A stretch of 10,079 bases of DNA from Candidatus Microgenomatus auricola (GTDB lineage Bacteria; Patescibacteriota; Patescibacteriia; UBA9570; XYC2-FULL-38-9), in assembly GCA_005239655.1 (NCBI GenBank), contig SBBP01000010.1:1-10079 (forward strand). Direction: 5' to 3'. The position numbers and the translations under genes are program-made. Below are positions 3,768-10,079 of the stretch, one piece after another (the first letter of the stretch is position 1; every line of letters starts with the position of its first letter). Under the pieces are notes generated by a model. That model was not told where the DNA came from and did not search any database. It was given only the letters and a program-made list of their open reading frames with translations.

Positions 3768-6338
3768 TCAACTCAACGCTTCGAGAGACTTCTTCAACTG
3801 CTGGAGTTCAGTTTCACGCTGTGCATGCAGATCGCGTGTCTGGTCGACAATATCCGCTCGTGCATTCTGCATAAACTTCTCGTTGTTGAGTTTGTCAGCA
3901 ATGCTGGCAATATGCTTCTCGACTTCAACCATCTGTGTCGCGAGACGTTGCTTTTCTTTTTCGACATCAATGACACCATCCAGTGGGATGATGAACTTCT
4001 GTTCACCAGAAACCAGATGCGCTGCCGTGGTATATGATTTTTCTGGCACAAAATGCACACGGGCGAGGTGGGCAATGAGCGCCGTGTCTTCTTCTGGCAT
4101 GTCCACAGCCAATACCTCTAGTTTTCTCCCGGGCGCAATGCGATATTCGCGACGCAGGTTACGAACATCCGTGACGATCTGTTGAATGGCGTCAAATCGC
4201 TTATCAAGCGCGGGGTCAATCATCGATTCGTCCGCGTGCGGCCATTCATCAACCATCAACATGCCGTGTGGCATGACCATTCCTGCTTCTTTTGCGACCA
4301 CTTCAGTCACAAATGGAATGACCGGATGCAATAATTTCAGCACCGTTCCCAACACCTCGCGTTGTTTTATGGAGGGTACTGTTTTTAACTTCGACATCTC
4401 AATATACCAGTCAGCAAATTCATGCCACACAAATCCATACAGCCGATCACACGCCTGGCCGTATTGGTCATCCGCATAGGCACGGTCCACATCGCGAATC
4501 AACGCATGCAGACGGGAGAGAATCCATCGGTCCGCACGTGACGGCTCGCCTGCCGAGGCCTCATTCATCACCACAAAACGCGACACATTCCACAGCTTGT
4601 TCACGAAGTTTCGAAAGTTTGCGATTTTTTCTTCGTAGAGTCGCACGTCATTCCCTGGCGTTGTTCCGGTGACCAGCGACATGCGCACTGCGTCCGTTCC
4701 ATATTTTGCGGTCATCTCGAGCGGGTCAATGCCATTGCCTTTGGACTTGCTCATTTTCTGCCCAAACTTGTCACGCACCAATCCATGCAAATAGACTTTG
4801 CGAAACGGAATTTCGCCCATGCCGTAGGTTGTCATTAAGATCATGCGTGCCACCCAGAAAAACAAAATGTCATAGCCGGTTTCCAATACGTCTGTGGGAT
4901 GGAATGTATTCAAGTCCTTCGACTTCTGCGGCCAGCCGAGCGTGGAGAAAGTCCACATACCAGAAGAAAACCACGTATCCAACACATCTTCGTCTTGTGT
5001 GTAGTCTGCTCCTGGCGAATCAATCTGCACAACCGGTTTTTCGCGCGCAGCATCACCGCTGTGATACCACGCAGGAATGCGATGGCCGTACCACAGCTGG
5101 CGAGAAATACACCAATCATGCAAATTCTCCATCCAGTGTTCGTACGTTTTGTTAAAACGATCCGGAACAATCTGAATGTCCCCCTCACGAACCACGTCAA
5201 GCGCCACTTCTTTCAATGTCTGCGTTTTTCCCTTCCACGCAACCACTGGCTTGTCGACCGCGACAAACCACTGCTTCATGATTTGTGGTTCGATCTTTCC
5301 TCCACCGCGATAGCTCACCGCGATGCTGTGCAAATATTCTTCGTCGATTTTTACCAACAGCCCTTTGGCTTTCAGTTTTTCAACAATCTTTGGCCGCGCC
5401 TCTTCAATATGCGTGCCGGCAAATTCACCGGCAACGGGCAACAGATTTCCATCCAAATCAATAATCTGTTCTTTATCCAGCCCGTGACGCTGCGCAATCT
5501 CAAAGTCCGTCGGCGTGTGCCACGGTGTGATGGTCATTACGCCTGAACCAAACGCGGGATCCACTGCTTCGTCTTTAATGATCGTCGCCGTGATCGGACC
5601 GTTGATCCATTCGACTTCCAAAGTGTCGCCGTGGCGATATGCGGCGTAACGCTCATCATCGGGATGCATCACGACGTATTTGTCACCGAACTTCGTTTCT
5701 GGCCGTACGGTACCAATCACAAACGGTCCGTACTGAAAATAGTAAAACGGCGCCTTCTCCTCTTTGTATTCCATTTCGTCGTCGGCAACAGTGGTATGCA
5801 GTTTCGGATCCCAGTTGACGACACGGTCACCGCGATACACGAGTCCGTCGTTCGCCATTTGAATGAACATGGTTTGTACCGCGTGAACCAATCCAGGATC
5901 GAGTGTGAATCGCTCACGCGTCCAGTCGAGCGAGAATCCCATTTTGCGCAACTGGTTGTTGATCGTGGATTTTGATTCTTCAACAAAAGCGTCAATGCGC
6001 CGCAGCAATTCTTCACGCCCCACGTCGTGCCGTGTTTTTCCTTCGGCTGCGTACATCATAGACTCCACTTTGCTCTGCGTGGCAATCGCCGCGTGATCTG
6101 TGCCCGGCAGCCAGAGTGTTTTTTTGCCTTGCATACGAGCATGACGAATCATCACGTCCTGGAGCACGTACATGGCGTGGCCAAGATGCAGCGTTCCTGT
6201 GGCATTTGGCGGCGGCAAGACAATGCTAAACGGCTCAGTGCGATCGCCTGGCAAGTTTTCGGGAGTATAAAAACCGGACGCTTCCCATAGACCGGAAATC
6301 TCATCTTCATGTTGTGCGGGATTGTATGCTTTGTCCAT
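3768..6338 (-). CDS. valS: valyl-tRNA synthetase
   Basis: Class Ia synthetase charging tRNA-Val with valine in the cytoplasm. From ATG at 6338 the product is 856 aa and begins MDKAYNP, matching the usual ValRS N-terminus. In-frame ATGs at 6341 and 6353 and a TTG at 6359 would add one, five or seven residues. The HIGH-type signature is HLGH (about residues 51-54), inside PPPNATGTLHLGH. KMSKS lies at about 528-532. Between them is the CP1 editing domain, with VRPETKFGD and ITPWHTPTDFE. In that last motif the universal Asp is kept, while the positions equal to Lys270 and Asp276 of Thermus ValRS are Thr. The anticodon-binding domain (LWNVSRF, about 582-588) and a C-terminal coiled-coil arm (about 790-856) are complete. 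No clear promoter, Shine-Dalgarno site or T-box lies directly upstream. It is convergent with pilB, 15 bp between stops, with no evident terminator between them. Confidence 0.96.
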   Translation of the reverse strand: MDKAYNPAQHEDEISGLWEASGFYTPENLPGDRTEPFSIVLPPPNATGTLHLGHAMYVLQDVMIRHARMQGKKTLWLPGTDHAAIATQSKVESMMYAAEGKTRHDVGREELLRRIDAFVEESKSTINNQLRKMGFSLDWTRERFTLDPGLVHAVQTMFIQMANDGLVYRGDRVVNWDPKLHTTVADDEMEYKEEKAPFYYFQYGPFVIGTVRPETKFGDKYVVMHPDDERYAAYRHGDTLEVEWINGPITATIIKDEAVDPAFGSGVMTITPWHTPTDFEIAQRHGLDKEQIIDLDGNLLPVAGEFAGTHIEEARPKIVEKLKAKGLLVKIDEEYLHSIAVSYRGGGKIEPQIMKQWFVAVDKPVVAWKGKTQTLKEVALDVVREGDIQIVPDRFNKTYEHWMENLHDWCISRQLWYGHRIPAWYHSGDAAREKPVVQIDSPGADYTQDEDVLDTWFSSGMWTFSTLGWPQKSKDLNTFHPTDVLETGYDILFFWVARMILMTTYGMGEIPFRKVYLHGLVRDKFGQKMSKSKGNGIDPLEMTAKYGTDAVRMSLVTGTTPGNDVRLYEEKIANFRNFVNKLWNVSRFVVMNEASAGEPSRADRWILSRLHALIRDVDRAYADDQYGQACDRLYGFVWHEFADWYIEMSKLKTVPSIKQREVLGTVLKLLHPVIPFVTEVVAKEAGMVMPHGMLMVDEWPHADESMIDPALDKRFDAIQQIVTDVRNLRREYRIAPGRKLEVLAVDMPEEDTALIAHLARVHFVPEKSYTTAAHLVSGEQKFIIPLDGVIDVEKEKQRLATQMVEVEKHIASIADKLNNEKFMQNARADIVDQTRDLHAQRETELQQLKKSLEALS

Positions 6339-6352
6339 CATAGGCGAATACA

Positions 6353-6381
6353 TTGACAATGAAACTTTTTTTTAGTTGAGT
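6353..6381 (+). promoter_or_regulatory. possible promoter of the 110-aa orphan gene
   Basis: Perfect -35 TTGACA (6353-6358), a 17-bp spacer, then a poor -10 TTGAGT (6376-6381). The predicted start near 6388 leaves a 16-nt leader holding AGGG before the ATG at 6404. The -35 box overlaps the upstream in-frame start candidates of valS on the other strand, so the two 5' ends are interlocked. Confidence 0.4.
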
Positions 6382-6403
6382 GAATGCACCACAGGGTGTG
6401 ATC

Positions 6404-6736
6404 ATGAGTAATCGAATTCGTAGAACGCTCGAGGGGCGGTCGCTGGGTGCCAAACAGGCGATTCGACTTCTGCTCGCTGAACTCGAGCTCGAGGAACGTG
6501 AGGCCAATGCGATGCCTCGTGTCGAGCTCATCAGGCGCGTCAACGACCACCAGGTGATGCTGAAGAACGCTGCGCAGGTTGATTACGTCTTCGGTCCAGA
6601 GCTCAGCAGCAACGCAGAGCTCGGGTCAGGCGGACGGCCTGAAGCTCGCGAGCCTCCGTCCGACGATCTGCGGGCCGCAGTGGAGCGGCCGTGGTATTGG
6701 TGGCTCTGGCCGCCGAACTGGCGACGTCGCGCGTGA
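6404..6736 (+). CDS. 110-aa orphan protein with Trp-rich basic tail
   Basis: No family recognised. Residues 1-60 are charged and look helical: a basic start (MSNRIRRTLEGR), then LLLAELELEEREAN (22-35) and VELIRRVNDHQVML (40-53). Residues 64-95 are Gly/Pro/Ser-rich and probably disordered. The end, PWYWWLWPPNWRRRA (96-110), has five Trp and three Arg, which suggests membrane-interface contact or a binding peptide. There is no signal peptide or full transmembrane segment. ATG at 6404 is preferred over an in-frame GTG at 6380 because AGGG lies about 7 bases upstream of it. A strong terminator follows the stop. The gene is clearly more GC-rich than valS and lies opposite to both flanking genes (valS and HD). 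Bounded by its own promoter candidate and terminator, it behaves like a self-contained, perhaps acquired, unit. Coding status rests on the RBS, terminator and open frame, not on homology. Confidence 0.6.
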   Translation: MSNRIRRTLEGRSLGAKQAIRLLLAELELEEREANAMPRVELIRRVNDHQVMLKNAAQVDYVFGPELSSNAELGSGGRPEAREPPSDDLRAAVERPWYWWLWPPNWRRRA

Positions 6737-6745
6737 GTGGAGCAT

Positions 6746-6780
6746 GCCGGACGACGACGAAAGTCCGGCCTTCTTTTTTT
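6746..6780 (+). terminator. strong intrinsic terminator of the 110-aa gene
   Basis: A perfect 7-bp GC-rich stem, GCCGGAC (6746-6752) with GTCCGGC (6763-6769), and a 10-nt loop, followed by a T-rich tract (6771-6780). It begins 9 bases after the stop codon. The T-tract touches the stop codon of the HD gene on the opposite strand. Read in the HD direction the hairpin has no T-tract behind it, so it should not stop HD transcription. Confidence 0.9.
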
Positions 6781-7747
6781 AAAGAACTTTCACAAAATAG
6801 CCCTGGCTCATCCGCTGCATAAAGGCAGTATTCTCCTGTTGGACAGAGTGGTCAATTGCACTGATGCGCTGCTTCGTCCCTCTCTGCATTACCCAAGGAT
6901 CGACCACGCGAATCTTCGGACGAATGTGATAATCATAGTCCGTGCTGTCCTCTCGCACGGTGATGTGCTCCATATCGTGCAAAAATTTTGTGACTTCTGG
7001 ATGTTGTGACGATTGCATTTTCCGATAGACGTCCTGGTCCGTTGTAAAGAGATCGTCAAAAGTGATGATGCCTTCTTCAAGACTGAGTTTCATTGCTGAC
7101 GCCAGTAAATAGTACAACGCTGATTGCAGCGGGTTTGCCCACAGTTTTTCGTTTGCGGCGCGGTAGGTGGTTGCAAACTGTTTTGCCCGTTCGGTGTTTT
7201 GAAAAACAATGTCGCCCTCGAAGACTGTCATGTCGCTGAGGAGCGCACGTGCTTCGAGGAGGTCCAGTTGCTTGTCGGTCACACAATCCCGAAAGCAGTA
7301 ATCAATGCGATCGGCGCACAGGTCCGGCAGGTCGCGATCGGCAAGCTGAAACGCAGACTTGTTCAGCAAACTCCAGACCGAAATTCCATTGCGCTTGAGA
7401 ATTTTTGGAATCTCGGATTCAAAAATAATTTTTTCGTGGAATTTTTCGTGGAATGTTTGCGAGGCGTCACCAAACACAATGTCGGACACATGCGAAAAGG
7501 CGGTGTGCGGAGCGTCGTGCAACAACCCGGCCACTTGTTCAACCAGTGATGCACCAAGGCGTTGCAAAATGTGGTAGACGCCGACGCTGTGTTCAAAACG
7601 ATTGGTGGTGAGGTGCGGAAAACGGTAAAACGACGCACCGTACTGATTGACATCTTTCAACCGTTGCAACGGCTTACTCAAAATCAACTCTTCAACCACC
7701 GGTTCGGTGATGGTGATGTTGCCGTAAATGCGGTCGGTGTATTCCAT
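6779..7747 (-). CDS. HD-domain phosphohydrolase (COG1078/dGTPase-like)
   Basis: The 322-aa protein resembles the dNTP-triphosphohydrolase-like branch of the HD superfamily, related to SAMHD1. Metal-site residues are in place: H53 in NRFEHSVGVYH, H77-D78 in AGLLHDAPHTAFSH, and D146 in DLCADRIDY. The N-terminus (DRIYGNITITEP, then LQRLKDVNQYG) matches the family opening DPIHGYI...FQRLRRIKQLG. Known of the family: members hydrolyse dNTPs or other nucleotides using a bound metal. The exact substrate cannot be read from sequence. No membrane segment is seen. ATG at 7747 lies 12 bases after the T-tract-associated terminator hairpin of its leader and has no Shine-Dalgarno site. The leader looks like a T-box attenuator, so expression may respond to uncharged tRNA. 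No terminator is seen after the gene in its own direction, so transcripts could run on, antisense to the 110-aa gene, into valS. Confidence 0.85.
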   Translation of the reverse strand: MEYTDRIYGNITITEPVVEELILSKPLQRLKDVNQYGASFYRFPHLTTNRFEHSVGVYHILQRLGASLVEQVAGLLHDAPHTAFSHVSDIVFGDASQTFHEKFHEKIIFESEIPKILKRNGISVWSLLNKSAFQLADRDLPDLCADRIDYCFRDCVTDKQLDLLEARALLSDMTVFEGDIVFQNTERAKQFATTYRAANEKLWANPLQSALYYLLASAMKLSLEEGIITFDDLFTTDQDVYRKMQSSQHPEVTKFLHDMEHITVREDSTDYDYHIRPKIRVVDPWVMQRGTKQRISAIDHSVQQENTAFMQRMSQGYFVKVL

Positions 7748-7909
7748 AGAATAAATAAAGACCCCTGCTCAGGGTCCTTTGGATCACGCTCCATCGGACG
7801 GTACCACCTGATTCTCTCGCGACGGCGAGAGCGCTCATTGTCTGCCATTCACGCTGGCAAAACGGGTCAGCTCCTACTGGTGACATGGGCAGTAGTACGT
7901 GCGCTTTTC
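7748..7909 (-). promoter_or_regulatory. T-box-like tRNA-sensing leader of the HD gene
   Basis: Read on the minus strand from the predicted start near 7909, the leader shows in order: (1) a long arm whose base is AGCGC/GCGCT (7902-7906 region with 7830-7834), then CTGCC/GGCAG, TCAC/GTGA and GCTG/CAGC, separated by internal loops; (2) a hairpin CTCTCGC-cgtc-GCGAGAG (7814-7831) whose first bases compete with the arm base; (3) the core AGGTGGTACCG (7799-7809), one base short of the classic T-box AGGGTGGTACCG and containing the UGGU that would pair with a tRNA acceptor end having A73; (4) an intrinsic terminator (7750-7776). TCAGG at the core can pair with CCTGA inside the terminator's 5' side, giving a switch. 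Known: T-boxes sense uncharged tRNA, mostly upstream of aminoacyl-tRNA synthetase and amino-acid genes. The specifier is unclear. The 3' loop opposite the arm base reads ACAATGA, where AUG followed by A is only one candidate. Confidence 0.55.
7750..7776 (-). terminator. attenuator terminator ahead of the HD gene
   Basis: On the minus strand GACCC pairs with GGGTC (7772-7776 with 7760-7764) around a 7-nt loop, with an alternative register CCCT/AGGG. TTTATTTATT follows directly, and the HD start codon lies 12 bases beyond the hairpin. A terminator between promoter and start codon implies regulated read-through. Confidence 0.7.
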
Positions 7910-7915
7910 GTTTCT

Positions 7916-7944
7916 ACTGTAGTGGAAGTGCTTGCTCGCGTCAA
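7916..7944 (-). promoter_or_regulatory. sigma70-type promoter of the HD leader
   Basis: On the minus strand, -35 TTGACG (7939-7944), a 17-bp spacer, and -10 TACAGT (7916-7921). The expected start near 7909 gives a leader of about 160 nt that begins just before the T-box-like arm. Confidence 0.65.
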
Positions 7945-7987
7945 GGCATCTGCGTGTGCGTTTGCGCATGTGCACTACTCACGCGTA

Positions 7988-8016
7988 TTGTCGTTTCAGT
8001 GGAGCGGTGCTATGGT
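7988..8016 (+). promoter_or_regulatory. promoter candidate of the CNBD-fold gene
   Basis: TTGTCG (7988-7993), a 17-bp spacer, and TATGGT (8011-8016), each matching consensus at four of six positions. The expected start near 8023 gives a leader of about 43 nt that includes GGGAGG. It diverges from the HD promoter, with 43 bp between the two -35 boxes. Nothing else was recognised in the spacer. Confidence 0.5.
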
Positions 8017-8065
8017 TTTTCTGCATACAGCAGTCTCGCTTGTGTGCTTGTACCGGGAGGTTTTG

Positions 8066-8530
8066 ATGGATATCTCACTTCAGCAGCTGCGAAACGGACC
8101 GGAGGTGCGTGCCCAGGTGCTGCGGGGCGCGGGCTTCTTCAGGGATAACATGGAGTCCGACCTCATCGACGAGCTCGCTCTGCGTGTTCTCGCCGAAGTC
8201 TACGCCCCGGGCAGGGACCTCTGCCAGATGGGGGAAGTGGCGGACTCCGTCATCGTGGTGGTCTCGGGGCGTGTCGTCATCCCGGGGAGTGGCGAAGATG
8301 GCCCGAGCTTCGGTCCGGGCGACGTCATCGGCGACTTCGGTCTCCTGGTGGGCTCCGGTGACGCCACGCGGACGGAAAGCCTGGTCGCGGCGGAGGAAAC
8401 CGTCGTGCTCGAAATTCCCTACGAGCACCTACTCGTACACCGCAGTTCGCTGCTCTTCGCCATCGGTCGGCGGGTGCACGCGGCGCTCACCGCAGCGAAC
8501 CAGCGTATCCGGAGGCTGACCCAGTTGTAA
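8066..8530 (+). CDS. stand-alone cyclic-nucleotide-binding-fold protein
   Basis: The 154-aa protein looks like a single CNBD/Crp-N-type beta-roll without an HTH or enzymatic domain. An N-terminal helical part (about 1-43) leads to VYAPGRDLCQMGEVADSVIV (45-64), matching the family pattern of a basic turn, then G then D/S then hydrophobic strand. VSGRVVI (66-72) is the typical 'v.sG.v.v' strand. The phosphate-binding cassette region is GDVIGDFGLL...TRTES (85-105), with Arg102-Thr103 in the usual RT position and Asp where the family has Glu. A C-helix-like end (126-150) follows. Known of the family: binds cAMP or cGMP and changes conformation, often to drive a partner domain. Here the partner must be a separate protein, or ligand binding may be lost. 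ATG at 8066 has an excellent GGGAGG 5 bases upstream. GC is well above the core genes (39 of 60 bases in the row starting at 8221). Divergent from the HD leader and convergent with the membrane-protein gene. Confidence 0.75.
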   Translation: MDISLQQLRNGPEVRAQVLRGAGFFRDNMESDLIDELALRVLAEVYAPGRDLCQMGEVADSVIVVVSGRVVIPGSGEDGPSFGPGDVIGDFGLLVGSGDATRTESLVAAEETVVLEIPYEHLLVHRSSLLFAIGRRVHAALTAANQRIRRLTQL

Positions 8531-8548
8531 CCGTTGGTTGCATTCTGG

Positions 8549-8592
8549 CTCTTTTTTTATTGGCAAAAAAAGAGAGTCCGTGTGATGGACTC
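8549..8592. terminator. back-to-back hairpins between convergent genes
   Basis: Two inverted repeats abut. CTCTTTTTTT (8549-8558) pairs with AAAAAAAGAG (8565-8574). GAGTCC (8574-8579) pairs with GGACTC (8587-8592) around a 7-nt loop. On the minus strand the second hairpin is followed by TCTTTTTTT, an excellent intrinsic terminator starting 4 bases after the stop of the 145-aa gene. On the plus strand the T-run at 8552-8558 may end the CNBD gene, but its upstream stem is poor. Confidence 0.8.
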
Positions 8593-8595
8593 GTG

Positions 8596-9033
8596 CTACG
8601 GCAGACCGGAGCTCGCCCGCCAACCCCACGGACGCATGTCACGCGGTTGCGCCGCGCGTTCCGTGTGCAGCAGGTTGGCCGCGATCCTTGCCTCCAGGCG
8701 AAGGAACAGCCGGTCTCCCCACCGGATGTCCTTCGCGGGGATGCTGTCGATGAATGCGCGGGCTTCCTCCTTGGTTGCCACGGGCACCCGACGTGCGGCG
8801 ACGTGCGGTTCCTGCACGTTGTCGGACTCGGCCGTGAAGACCAGGTAGACGAAGCCCCTGCCGTCTTCCTCCACCAGCTTGATGCGTGGCGTCTTGCTCC
8901 GCGAGAAGGCACCCCGTGCCCGGTTGAACGCCGCTACGGTGAGCAGCGCTCCGGTACAGGTGGCCCATACGCCGAGCTGACGAGTGAGTGTGCTGTTCCC
9001 TCCCACCATTTCTCCTTCCGGTGCTCTGTGCAT
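8596..9033 (-). CDS. 145-aa membrane-anchored orphan protein
   Basis: No family recognised. From ATG at 9033 the protein has a short N-terminal part, one predicted transmembrane segment (LGVWATCTGALLTVAAF, 20-36), then an Arg-rich stretch (38-50, RARGAFSRSKTPR). By the positive-inside rule this puts the C-terminal domain in the cytoplasm. That domain (51-128) has beta-like segments (RIKLVEEDGRGFVYLVF, 50-66) and a helix (87-98). The tail is basic with two Trp. The start was chosen because AGAGG lies 7 bases upstream and a strong promoter precedes it. The longer frame to 9129 would begin inside or upstream of that promoter. An internal ATG at residue 9 has a Shine-Dalgarno-like AAGGAG but only 2 bases away, too close. 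GC is higher than in the core genes. It is bounded by its own promoter and terminator, like the other GC-rich orphans here. Confidence 0.65.
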   Translation of the reverse strand: MHRAPEGEMVGGNSTLTRQLGVWATCTGALLTVAAFNRARGAFSRSKTPRIKLVEEDGRGFVYLVFTAESDNVQEPHVAARRVPVATKEEARAFIDSIPAKDIRWGDRLFLRLEARIAANLLHTERAAQPRDMRPWGWRASSGLP

Positions 9034-9058
9034 GTTTTGACCTCTTGCAGCGATGACG

Positions 9059-9087
9059 ATTGTAGTGAATTCTTTTACGCGCGTCAA
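9059..9087 (-). promoter_or_regulatory. strong sigma70-type promoter of the 145-aa gene
   Basis: On the minus strand, -35 TTGACG (9082-9087), a 17-bp spacer, and -10 TACAAT (9059-9064). The expected start near 9052 gives a leader of about 19 nt that contains AGAGG before the ATG at 9033. Confidence 0.75.
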
Positions 9088-9133
9088 TGCAGTGATGTGT
9101 GGGTGTGTTGTGTGGTGTCGGATCCACACGAGT

Positions 9134-9195
9134 AAAAAAAATGGGCCCGATCGTGTTCTTTCCGCGTTCCGTCGTTGGAACGCACACGATGGGCC
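9134..9195 (-). terminator. large bulged-stem terminator downstream of the right-end gene
   Basis: On the minus strand GGCCC-ATCGTGT pairs with ACACGAT-c-GGGCC (9184-9195 with 9144-9156), a 12-bp stem with one bulged base. The loop holds a second perfect stem GCGTTCC/GGAACGC (9164-9183). The outer stem is followed by a run of eight T on the minus strand (A at 9134-9141). Orientation and T-tract assign it to the gene ending at 9258. Confidence 0.8.
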
Positions 9196-9207
9196 GATGC
9201 GGCCTGA

Positions 9208-9240
9208 CCCGGCGGCGACAGGGTCGCCACCACCGCCGGG
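9208..9240 (-). repeat. GC-rich hairpin directly after the right-end gene
   Basis: CCCGGC (9208-9213) pairs with GCCGGG (9235-9240), and GGCGAC (9214-9219) pairs with GTCGCC (9223-9228) around an AGG loop, leaving a 6-nt bulge (9229-9234). It begins 17 bases past the stop codon. With no T-tract of its own, it may protect the 3' end of the mRNA or pause polymerase before the terminator that follows. Confidence 0.6.
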
Positions 9241-9257
9241 CTAGAACGCGCCCGCTA

Positions 9258-10049
9258 CTACTGCGGGCTGGGCGCCGCGTCGCGCTGGCCGAAGCGGGCG
9301 AGGCTCGGCAGGTCGCGGCGGTTGCGGACCGAGAACGCGCCGGTGAGGCGGTTCTGCAGCGCGAGCTGCTCGGGCTTGAACCCGCGGCCGCAGACGACGG
9401 TGTTGTCGCCGAGCTTGTCCGTCCCGACCACGAGGGTCTGGAGCTGGATGAGCTGCGGGTCGCGGCTGTCGTCCCAGGTGACCGCGAAGTGCGGGAAGCG
9501 CGCCTTGCGGTCGCTCCCCTTCACCGTCGCGGTGAACACGCCGTTGTCGGGCGTGCCCAGGCCGGTGATCTCGCCGTCGGCGTTGAGCGTGCCGGCCAGC
9601 TTGTAGGCCGCCTCGCGCTCGCTGTCGTCGTCGTTCACCCAGCTGCGGGCGTCGTCCGCGTTGACCGCGTAGACGTCCTTGCTGCCCTGCGCCACCGAGA
9701 CGAGCGTCCCCTCGACGTCGTAGGCGGTGAACACCTCGTCGTCGCTGGCCTGCTCCGGGTTCGGGTCGAGCTCGCGGTAGTTCTTCGTCCGGTTGTCGAG
9801 CATCGCGCGCTTGGCGCGGCTGTCCGGCTTGCCGAACAGGGCGACGTTCGTCGAGACGGCCGCGTTGCGGGTGCGGCACTCCTCGTCGAAGATCGTCTGC
9901 TCGAGCATGTGGGCGAAGCCCATGGCCTCGGGGTCGTCCACGATCCGGGCGTCGGCGTGGATGAGCACCAGCTTGGTGCGCGCCACGCCGATCTCGTAGA
10001 TCTCGCCCGGGTTCTTCATGCCCGGGTAGAGGTCGTCGAGCGCGATGCG
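9258..10049 (-). CDS. very GC-rich protein of unknown function (5' end missing)
   Basis: No family recognised. From an in-frame ATG at 10019 there are 253 residues, but this Met looks internal. The frame stays open upstream (RIALDDLYPG before MKNPGEIYEIG), and no Shine-Dalgarno site precedes it. The true 5' end is hidden by the fold-back at 10011-10079. The protein is acidic, hydrophilic and without a transmembrane segment. Residues 15-21 of that numbering (KLVLIHA) look like a buried strand. The middle is rich in Asp and Asn (about 90-150). The end (AAPSPQ) is probably disordered. GC is the highest in the window (44 of 60 bases in the row starting at 9301). Two stacked hairpins with a T-tract follow the stop. 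It could be a laterally acquired gene, or the region could come from another genome joined by mis-assembly. The Arg-rich overlapping frame was rejected as a composition shadow. Confidence 0.55.
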   Translation of the reverse strand, partial: RIALDDLYPGMKNPGEIYEIGVARTKLVLIHADARIVDDPEAMGFAHMLEQTIFDEECRTRNAAVSTNVALFGKPDSRAKRAMLDNRTKNYRELDPNPEQASDDEVFTAYDVEGTLVSVAQGSKDVYAVNADDARSWVNDDDSEREAAYKLAGTLNADGEITGLGTPDNGVFTATVKGSDRKARFPHFAVTWDDSRDPQLIQLQTLVVGTDKLGDNTVVCGRGFKPEQLALQNRLTGAFSVRNRRDLPSLARFGQRDAAPSPQ

Positions 10050-10079
10050 GTCGACGACCTCTACCCGGGCATGAAGAAC
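10011..10079. repeat. perfect 29-bp fold-back inverted repeat at the contig end
   Basis: Bases 10011-10039 are the exact reverse complement of 10051-10079, with an 11-nt loop (10040-10050). The left arm continues the coding frame of the right-end gene, and the right arm simply retraces it. The arm ends exactly at the last base given. This is typical of a chimeric fold-back read at an assembly end. A true hairpin end is possible but less likely. Confidence 0.9.

Follow-up and report, generated by a model that had tools for sequence, protein, structure and literature searches.

A predicted valine T-box riboswitch with an ultra-short stem I ahead of an HD phosphohydrolase–valS gene pair in a patescibacterial genome

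The minus strand of contig SBBP01000010.1 from Candidatus Microgenomatus auricola, analysed here as a window of 10,079 nt (the whole stretch of DNA), carries a structured leader ahead of a gene for an HD-domain phosphohydrolase, which raises the question of what kind of switch this leader is and which gene it serves. An earlier note, made from the sequence alone, had read it as a T-box-like attenuator of the HD gene in a likely CPR genome. A promoter, a leader and an intrinsic terminator are present ahead of the HD ATG on the minus strand of 7740–7950, and all the elements named in that note (promoter, AGGTGGTACCG, a UCAGG/CCUGA option, intrinsic terminator and ATG at 7747) were found in the minus-strand sequence. 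The T-box attenuator is borne out by the sequence and by covariation, including an Rfam T-box ahead of a relative's HD gene and a match to a covariance model built from relatives (R1, described below), and the CPR host agrees with the nearest named relatives, which are Candidatus Kerfeldbacteria (L054, L055). The leader is very probably a valine T-box of some kind and, with a probability of roughly 0.7, the valine T-box riboswitch of an HD–valS gene pair, gating read-through into HD and valS. The features of the locus are as follows.

7944–7916, minus strand: sigma-70-like promoter TTGACG-17-TACAGT, from a consensus scan
7905–7869, minus strand: ultra-short stem I, from the comparative fold of relatives, the R1 match and covariation over 12 T-boxes
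7905–7903 / 7871–7869, minus strand: lower helix of stem I, AGC/GCU, on the same basis
7895–7890 / 7879–7874, minus strand: hairpin of stem I, CUACUG/CAGUAG, 6 pairs, on the same basis
7884–7882, minus strand: proposed specifier GUC (valine) in the hairpin loop CCCAUGUCAC, followed by A7881
7864–7862 / 7854–7852, minus strand: IIA helix CGU/GCG of a possible stem IIA/B pseudoknot, weak
7859–7855 / 7847–7843, minus strand: IIB helix UGCCA/UGGCA of the same possible pseudoknot, weak
7842–7832, minus strand: purine-rich linker GACAAUGAGCG, 5' of stem III
7831–7814, minus strand: stem III hairpin CUCUCGC-CGUC-GCGAGAG, from the energy fold, the comparative fold and R1
7811–7769, minus strand: antiterminator, from the core pattern, comparative fold, local fold and covariation
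7811–7807 / 7773–7769, minus strand: A1 helix UCAGG/CCUGA, which can pair
7809–7799, minus strand: T-box core AGGTGGTACCG, from the sequence
7806–7800, minus strand: T-box bulge UGGUACC, between A1 and A2
7799–7796 / 7777–7774, minus strand: A2 helix GUCC/GGAC, stacked on A1
7779–7757, minus strand: intrinsic terminator stem, its 5' arm using the 3' arms of A1 and A2, with a U-rich tail next to it
6779–7747, minus strand: HD-domain phosphohydrolase, 322 aa (PF01966, E 3.3e-7), first gene past the switch
6380–6736, plus strand: orphan ORF, 118 aa, between HD and valS
3768–6359, minus strand: valS, valine--tRNA ligase (TIGR00422, 876.6 bits; NF004349, 964.2 bits; both over cut-off)

This map amends the earlier one in several places. 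The terminator does lie just 5' of the ATG, but 9 bases from it rather than 12, and the antiterminator pairs as had been proposed, with the addition of the A2 helix, which was missing from the earlier list. The long stem with nested helices has to be given up: the minimum-free-energy fold of the leader is not unusual (z −1.11, with 24 of 200 shuffles equally good) and the relatives show a much shorter stem I. The suggestion of a divergent T-box class is retained as to divergence, the arm being an ultra-short hairpin and not a long one.

HD homologues were found in 19 of 57 genomes (own included), nine of them in the order (G000–G008); a tenth order member, G009, had neither an HD match nor a strong match to valS. 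The sequence GGTGGTACCG lies ahead of HD in five of the nine, namely the window, L006 (G002), L007 (G001), L012 (G007) and L013 (G008). The expectation that the core is kept ahead of HD genes is therefore borne out in these five and not in the other four (L008–L011), HD–valS order members in which neither the core pattern nor R1 detected a T-box. The core pattern likewise gave no rows in L014–L023.

The five order leaders share the order of their parts: a lower helix of 3–4 pairs, an internal loop and a hairpin of 5–7 pairs with a loop of 9–10 nt, and on the 3' side a short IIA helix followed by A1, UGGUACC, A2 and contiguous A2/A1 3' arms. Stem III was drawn in the window, L006 and L007. The distance from the start of stem I to the core is 93–99 nt in four of the leaders and 137 nt in L007, which carries a long stem II; the window has no stem II, since its spacer from stem I to IIA consists of GACC alone. 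The internal loop of stem I in the window is GCACGUA/GA at the K-turn position, and the K-turn UGA is present in three of the five leaders (L006, L012 and L013) and absent from the window and L007. A similar promoter site, compared without a chance control, precedes all five, and its −10 end lies so close to stem I (10–18 nt on its 5' side, 10 nt in the window) that a longer stem I could not be accommodated. The IIA/B pseudoknot can be drawn in all five and is not claimed here, because its matched arms pair no better than in the cross-pairing control (7, 5, 4, 4 and 4 pairings against a mismatched mean of 4.05), the IIB arms cross-pairing equally well. By eye, the leaders of L012 and L013 are without stem III, and the pairing partner of their terminator's 3' arm (UCACUU) is the purine linker 5' of the T-box (AAGUGA); their switch seems to be built differently.

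Detection by general models was weak. A search of all Rfam families over the whole window listed no T-box up to E 10, and one restricted to 7700–8000 (301 nt) gave RF00230 at 12.1 bits (E 1.5), placing the T-box core and stem III as in the anatomy proposed here. The RF00230 run that had been suggested earlier does list the leader, but at a score far under the gathering cut-off of 93 bits, which the G001 leader (40.6 bits) also misses. Over the whole genome RF00230 gave two places, C57 at 25 bits (E 5.4e-4), which is a thrS leader (TIGR00418 over cut-off), and C89 at 8.5 bits; the window leader was not listed. The L007 leader, directly ahead of HD, reached its 40.6 bits with E 6.5e-8 in its own genome and E 4.4e-6 against all Rfam families over five loci, a search whose rows at E≤1 did not include the T-boxes of L006, L012, L013 or L001. 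Chance is taken to account for weak matches to Rfam families of miRNAs, snoRNAs and plant viruses.

The model R1 was built from six valS leaders (L006, L007, L012, L013, L037 and L115), with the window left out, stem II removed from five of the six and the named structure supplied; MAFFT misaligned the untrimmed leaders because stem II varies in length, and the trimmed leaders were taken instead. Searched against the window, it gives the leader a score of 47.6 bits (E 1.5e-10), and over the whole genome this leader ranks first at the same score (E 1.4e-8), the sole other match up to E 10 being the thrS leader (28.2 bits, E 4.6e-4); these E-values are rough because the calibration was short. 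Much of the score comes from the conserved core, yet the window match spans all 121 positions; the score depends, too, on leaders having been aligned to fit the structure. Among 29 other loci, eight of the nine that hold a T-box gave an R1 match there with E no higher than 0.0027, the exception being L076, where the R1 row (E 6.6) falls elsewhere; the remaining 20 loci, including L008–L011 and ten valS loci without the core, gave nothing.

Chance occurrence of the core was assessed with a pattern of A1 helix, UGGNACC and A2 helix with contiguous 3' arms; 400 shuffled versions of the window held 11 copies of it, or about 0.03 per window. Over the collected loci and the window (1,064,202 bases, counting both strands and with overlaps between loci left in), 46 rows resulted, every one at an RF00230 match or a tested HD–valS leader. 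The pattern is insensitive, recovering 31 of the 50 loci that had been chosen for their RF00230 matches (L024–L053, L060–L079). The shorter GGTGGNACCR occurs 11 times in the genome, where stricter criteria leave the window and thrS. One match of a loosened pattern, in L145, was rejected, the printed stretch being an open coding frame.

Covariation of the helices in homologues, to which the earlier note had tied its reading, was found in 12 chosen T-boxes (the six of R1, the window, L071, L068, L075, L043 and L040) aligned as in R1. In total, 22 of 27 pairs changed on both sides, 88.2% of cells were paired against 64.8% in shuffles and 30–53% in slid versions, and none of 500 shuffles reached any of the five covariation measures, in an alignment that was fitted to the structure, which favours the structure, and with a result that leans on the conserved core too. 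Both helices of stem I covary fully, the lower one in 3/3 pairs (100% paired) and the hairpin in 5/5 (87.8% paired), followed by A1 in 3/5 (two invariant) and A2 in 3/4, while helices IIA and III are poorer (62–69% paired). The pairing control for stem I used arms picked for pairing and is hence not independent.

Energy folding of the whole leader gives a different picture, in which the core GUGGUAC pairs with a GUACUAC stretch from the 5' side of stem I, leaving both A1 and the proposed stem I unformed. These folds differ from relative to relative and were put aside for the comparative fold; they count against the T-box reading. Together with an Rfam score of 12.1 bits taken alone, they would suit an intrinsic attenuator without tRNA sensing, in which, for example, the GUACUAC/GUGGUAC pairing competes with the terminator and the core is decayed or due to chance. 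We give this alternative very little credence, since a model built without the window finds the leader at E 1.4e-8, relatives carry a T-box at the same place, the helices covary, and both a codon and a discriminator match, set out next, point to a tRNA.

The proposed specifier in the five order leaders is GUC (GUU in L012), followed by A (G in L007); in L076 and L115, the base after GUC is C. A valine codon in a hairpin loop, 1–2 nt 5' of the 3' arm, occurs in 9/10 valS leaders against 5/23 others (p 0.0004). The equivalent figures are 13/14 against 10/19 for the cognate codon in thrS leaders (p 0.015) and 7/9 against 9/24 for an Asp or Asn codon in aspS leaders (p 0.046), with thrS and aspS labels that come mostly from sequence motifs, or from letters (L038, L050), NCBIfam having been run on ten genes. 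Taken by itself, the codon test lacks sharpness, because the loops of the ten valS leaders hold cysteine codons in seven and serine codons in six, next to valine in nine, and a cysteine codon stands in the same kind of loop in 4/5 order leaders. It covered 33 leaders (glyS L060 and L074 and ileS L068 dropped), missed L064, L073, L070 and L075, and placed several thrS hits away from stem I. A first script on 36 leaders, which ranked the cognate hairpin first in 13 (4/10 valS leaders and 4/5 order leaders), was discarded, some of these hairpins lying at positions impossible for stem I.

The discriminator match is a second link to valine. The genome gave 34 tRNA matches, and a scan of 30 of these loci showed tRNA-Val with anticodons GAC, UAC and CAC. 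In a check covering the GAC and UAC species, the discriminator is A in both, and the UGGU of the window bulge complements this A73. The thrS leader of the same genome has UGGA, which fits the discriminator U of its tRNA-Thr(UGU). Among relatives the bulge follows the gene: UGGU ahead of valS in the window and 9/9 others, UGGA ahead of thrS in 13/13 and UGGC ahead of aspS in 7/9 (UGGU in L039 and L044), a tally in which two aspS and one valS were labelled later or by letters.

The specifier is thus cognate to the second gene downstream (valS) and not to the first (HD). HD is indeed the first gene past the switch, as the earlier claim of control over HD had it, but valS comes next after HD in all nine order genomes that have HD, and with a valine codon as proposed specifier, the switch most likely serves valS. 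NCBIfam was run on the window, L006, L007, L012 and L013, the last four falling below cut-off because their valS genes are cut by the locus ends. The HD protein itself is likely to be a nucleotide phosphohydrolase, judging from its nearest solved sequences, 2hek (E 7.9e-20), 2o6i and SAMHD1 chains (from E 2.7e-8). A link between tRNA charging and nucleotide metabolism, as put forward in the earlier note, does not follow, a valine T-box of an HD–valS pair being no evidence for it by itself; it is possible, because HD would be co-induced.

In the genome studied, HD and valS are 419 bp apart (counting from the TTG listed as the valS start), and the gap holds the orphan ORF on the opposite strand, for which Pfam and NCBIfam gave no match and a protein search returned the window's own copy alone. 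By eye, a GC hairpin with a T-run lies 3' of this ORF on the plus strand (6746–6780). This gap and its opposite-strand ORF, without relatives or family matches, speak against the main reading and would fit a T-box that reads tRNA-Val and here controls HD alone, a gene having been inserted between HD and valS and valS being transcribed from another promoter. A consensus scan of the gap, however, showed neither a terminator nor a promoter on the minus strand, and the matched HD and valS parts are about 10–155 bp apart in the other eight order members, which makes control of HD alone unlikely. A 9-of-12 promoter site is present at 6855–6827 on the minus strand, within the end of HD. Outside the order, the ten genomes with HD have HD and valS on separate contigs or far apart. 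On the other side of the leader, GC content rises from about 50% to 64–67% (8000–10079), and an ORF at the edge of this rise (7562–8530, plus strand) has a cyclic-nucleotide-binding domain and matches family 2B encapsulin weakly.

Control of the HD–valS pair by the valine T-box would involve a choice between two folds. In computed local folds of 7815–7752, the antiterminator is best (−16.1 kcal/mol) until the 3' arm of the terminator appears, after which the terminator is best (−17.4, −18.1); both draw on the same 3' arms, those of A1 and A2, and are thus mutually exclusive. The conserved and covarying parts, the two rival local folds, the codon and discriminator matches and the gene order come from computation; that the tRNA binds and affects termination, and that transcription runs on from HD into valS in this genome, we infer. 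The GUC in the loop of the very short stem I would pair with the GAC anticodon of tRNA-Val, and the 3' end of the uncharged tRNA would pair with UGGU of the T-box bulge and hold the A1/A2 antiterminator, allowing the polymerase to continue into HD and valS. With valine-charged tRNA, the terminator at 7779–7757 would prevail and transcription would stop.

The window shares with class I T-boxes (RF00230) the UGGNACC bulge between A1 and A2, the discriminator match, the terminator/antiterminator exchange, the purine linker, stem III and an aminoacyl-tRNA synthetase gene downstream. In contrast to them, it is without a long stem I, stem II or the distal elbow-binding (IDTM) arm, for which there is no room because the predicted −10 box ends 10 nt 5' of stem I. 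In its short specifier stem I and the absence of an elbow arm it resembles the class II ultra-short translational ileS T-boxes of Actinobacteria (Nocardia, Mycobacterium), but it differs from these in having a terminator-like hairpin with a U-rich tail instead of a ribosome-site sequestrator and valine instead of isoleucine, and in lacking a stem II with S-turn. The glyQS T-box of Firmicutes has a terminator and a full stem I with elbow contact. It and the window are alike in having a terminator and no stem II, and differ in the full elbow-contacting stem I of glyQS. PMC7583486 mentions glyQ T-boxes without stem II, and a stem II with S-turn is described as aiding tRNA binding in known ultra-short T-boxes; its absence here, like that of the K-turn UGA, weighs against the T-box reading.

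The same review states that transcriptional T-boxes generally need a long, elbow-gripping stem I because the tRNA must bind before the polymerase reaches the terminator, and that translational T-boxes mostly have intermediate or ultra-short stems (PMC7583486). The latter would speak for a T-box acting on translation here, as would the moderate U-tract and the AGGGG within the 3' arm of the terminator (7767–7763), which could be a hidden ribosome site. We hold this very unlikely: AGGGG is 15 nt from the ATG, beyond the usual spacing, and the gap is larger still in L006 and L007, while L012 and L013 carry runs of at least seven T 3' of the hairpin. No well-spaced ribosome site was seen by eye in the window leader.

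If the leader acts by termination, a terminator-bearing T-box with a 37-nt stem I and no stem II would break the long-stem rule and offer a minimal T-box for work on structure and kinetics. An ultra-short stem I, no stem II and a transcription terminator, in Patescibacteria, is an unusual combination. Searches of open-licence PMC found no paper on T-boxes in Patescibacteria, CPR, Parcubacteria, Kerfeldbacteria or Saccharibacteria (print elsewhere is possible), one on riboswitches in Patescibacteria, which proposes riboswitches as genetic tools, and the T-box review alone for an ultrashort stem I T-box with a terminator. Wels 2008 reports T-boxes in five of its tabulated phyla, with no CPR phylum among them, and the T-box database TBDB may hold such sequences.

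A broader proposal is that Patescibacteria have a T-box kind of their own, ultra-short, termination-acting and elbow-free, and that in the Kerfeldbacteria order a shortage of valine raises valS together with a SAMHD1-like dNTP hydrolase, slowing DNA synthesis. We regard this whole as improbable; if true, replication in a host-dependent cell would be coupled to tRNA charging through a protein-free starvation response.

In a wider search, RF00230 matched 86 of 191 relatives at E≤1 and 79 at E≤0.001, with six over the cut-off; at E≤1 it also matched 6 of 14 genomes used as controls, an archaeon among those six, so the weak end of these matches holds chance matches. At E≤0.001, R1 matched 54/191 genomes of the class and 26/145 of the phylum, own genome counted in both, in matches that need not all be of the short form. 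These results would place tRNA-sensing switches in Patescibacteria. Genes named by NCBIfam after such leaders are thrS, valS, aspS, proS, trpS, trpB, TrpB-like and argG (19 genes given), and a uridine-phosphorylase-like gene, below its NCBIfam cut-off, was found as well; in L077 and L078 no gene follows the leader on the contig.

Several of these leaders merit separate mention. In L031 (683–1438) and L032 (659–1420), a UGGGACC T-box immediately precedes the gene of a nucleoside enzyme, a PNP/uridine-family phosphorylase that scores over the cut-off for PF01048 and under it for TIGR01718. UGGGACC fits a discriminator C, which is that of tRNA-His, and by eye the L031 leader has a CAC (His) specifier after GAA. 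The thrS T-box of the genome studied here (C57; L001, 1480–1640) has UGGAACC and a short hairpin with the loop GUACACU, which holds ACA (Thr) followed by C. Long T-boxes precede argG in several families of the class (L027, L035 and L041 by NCBIfam, that of L041 being cut and below cut-off, and L028 by letters). Among aspS-like leaders, L038 has a GAC (Asp) codon in the loop, and L039, L040, L044, L046 and L062 have AAC (Asn) in a short hairpin loop, which hints that these five sense tRNA-Asn; the L040 protein is TIGR00459 and that of L070 is TIGR00458, aspS_nondisc.
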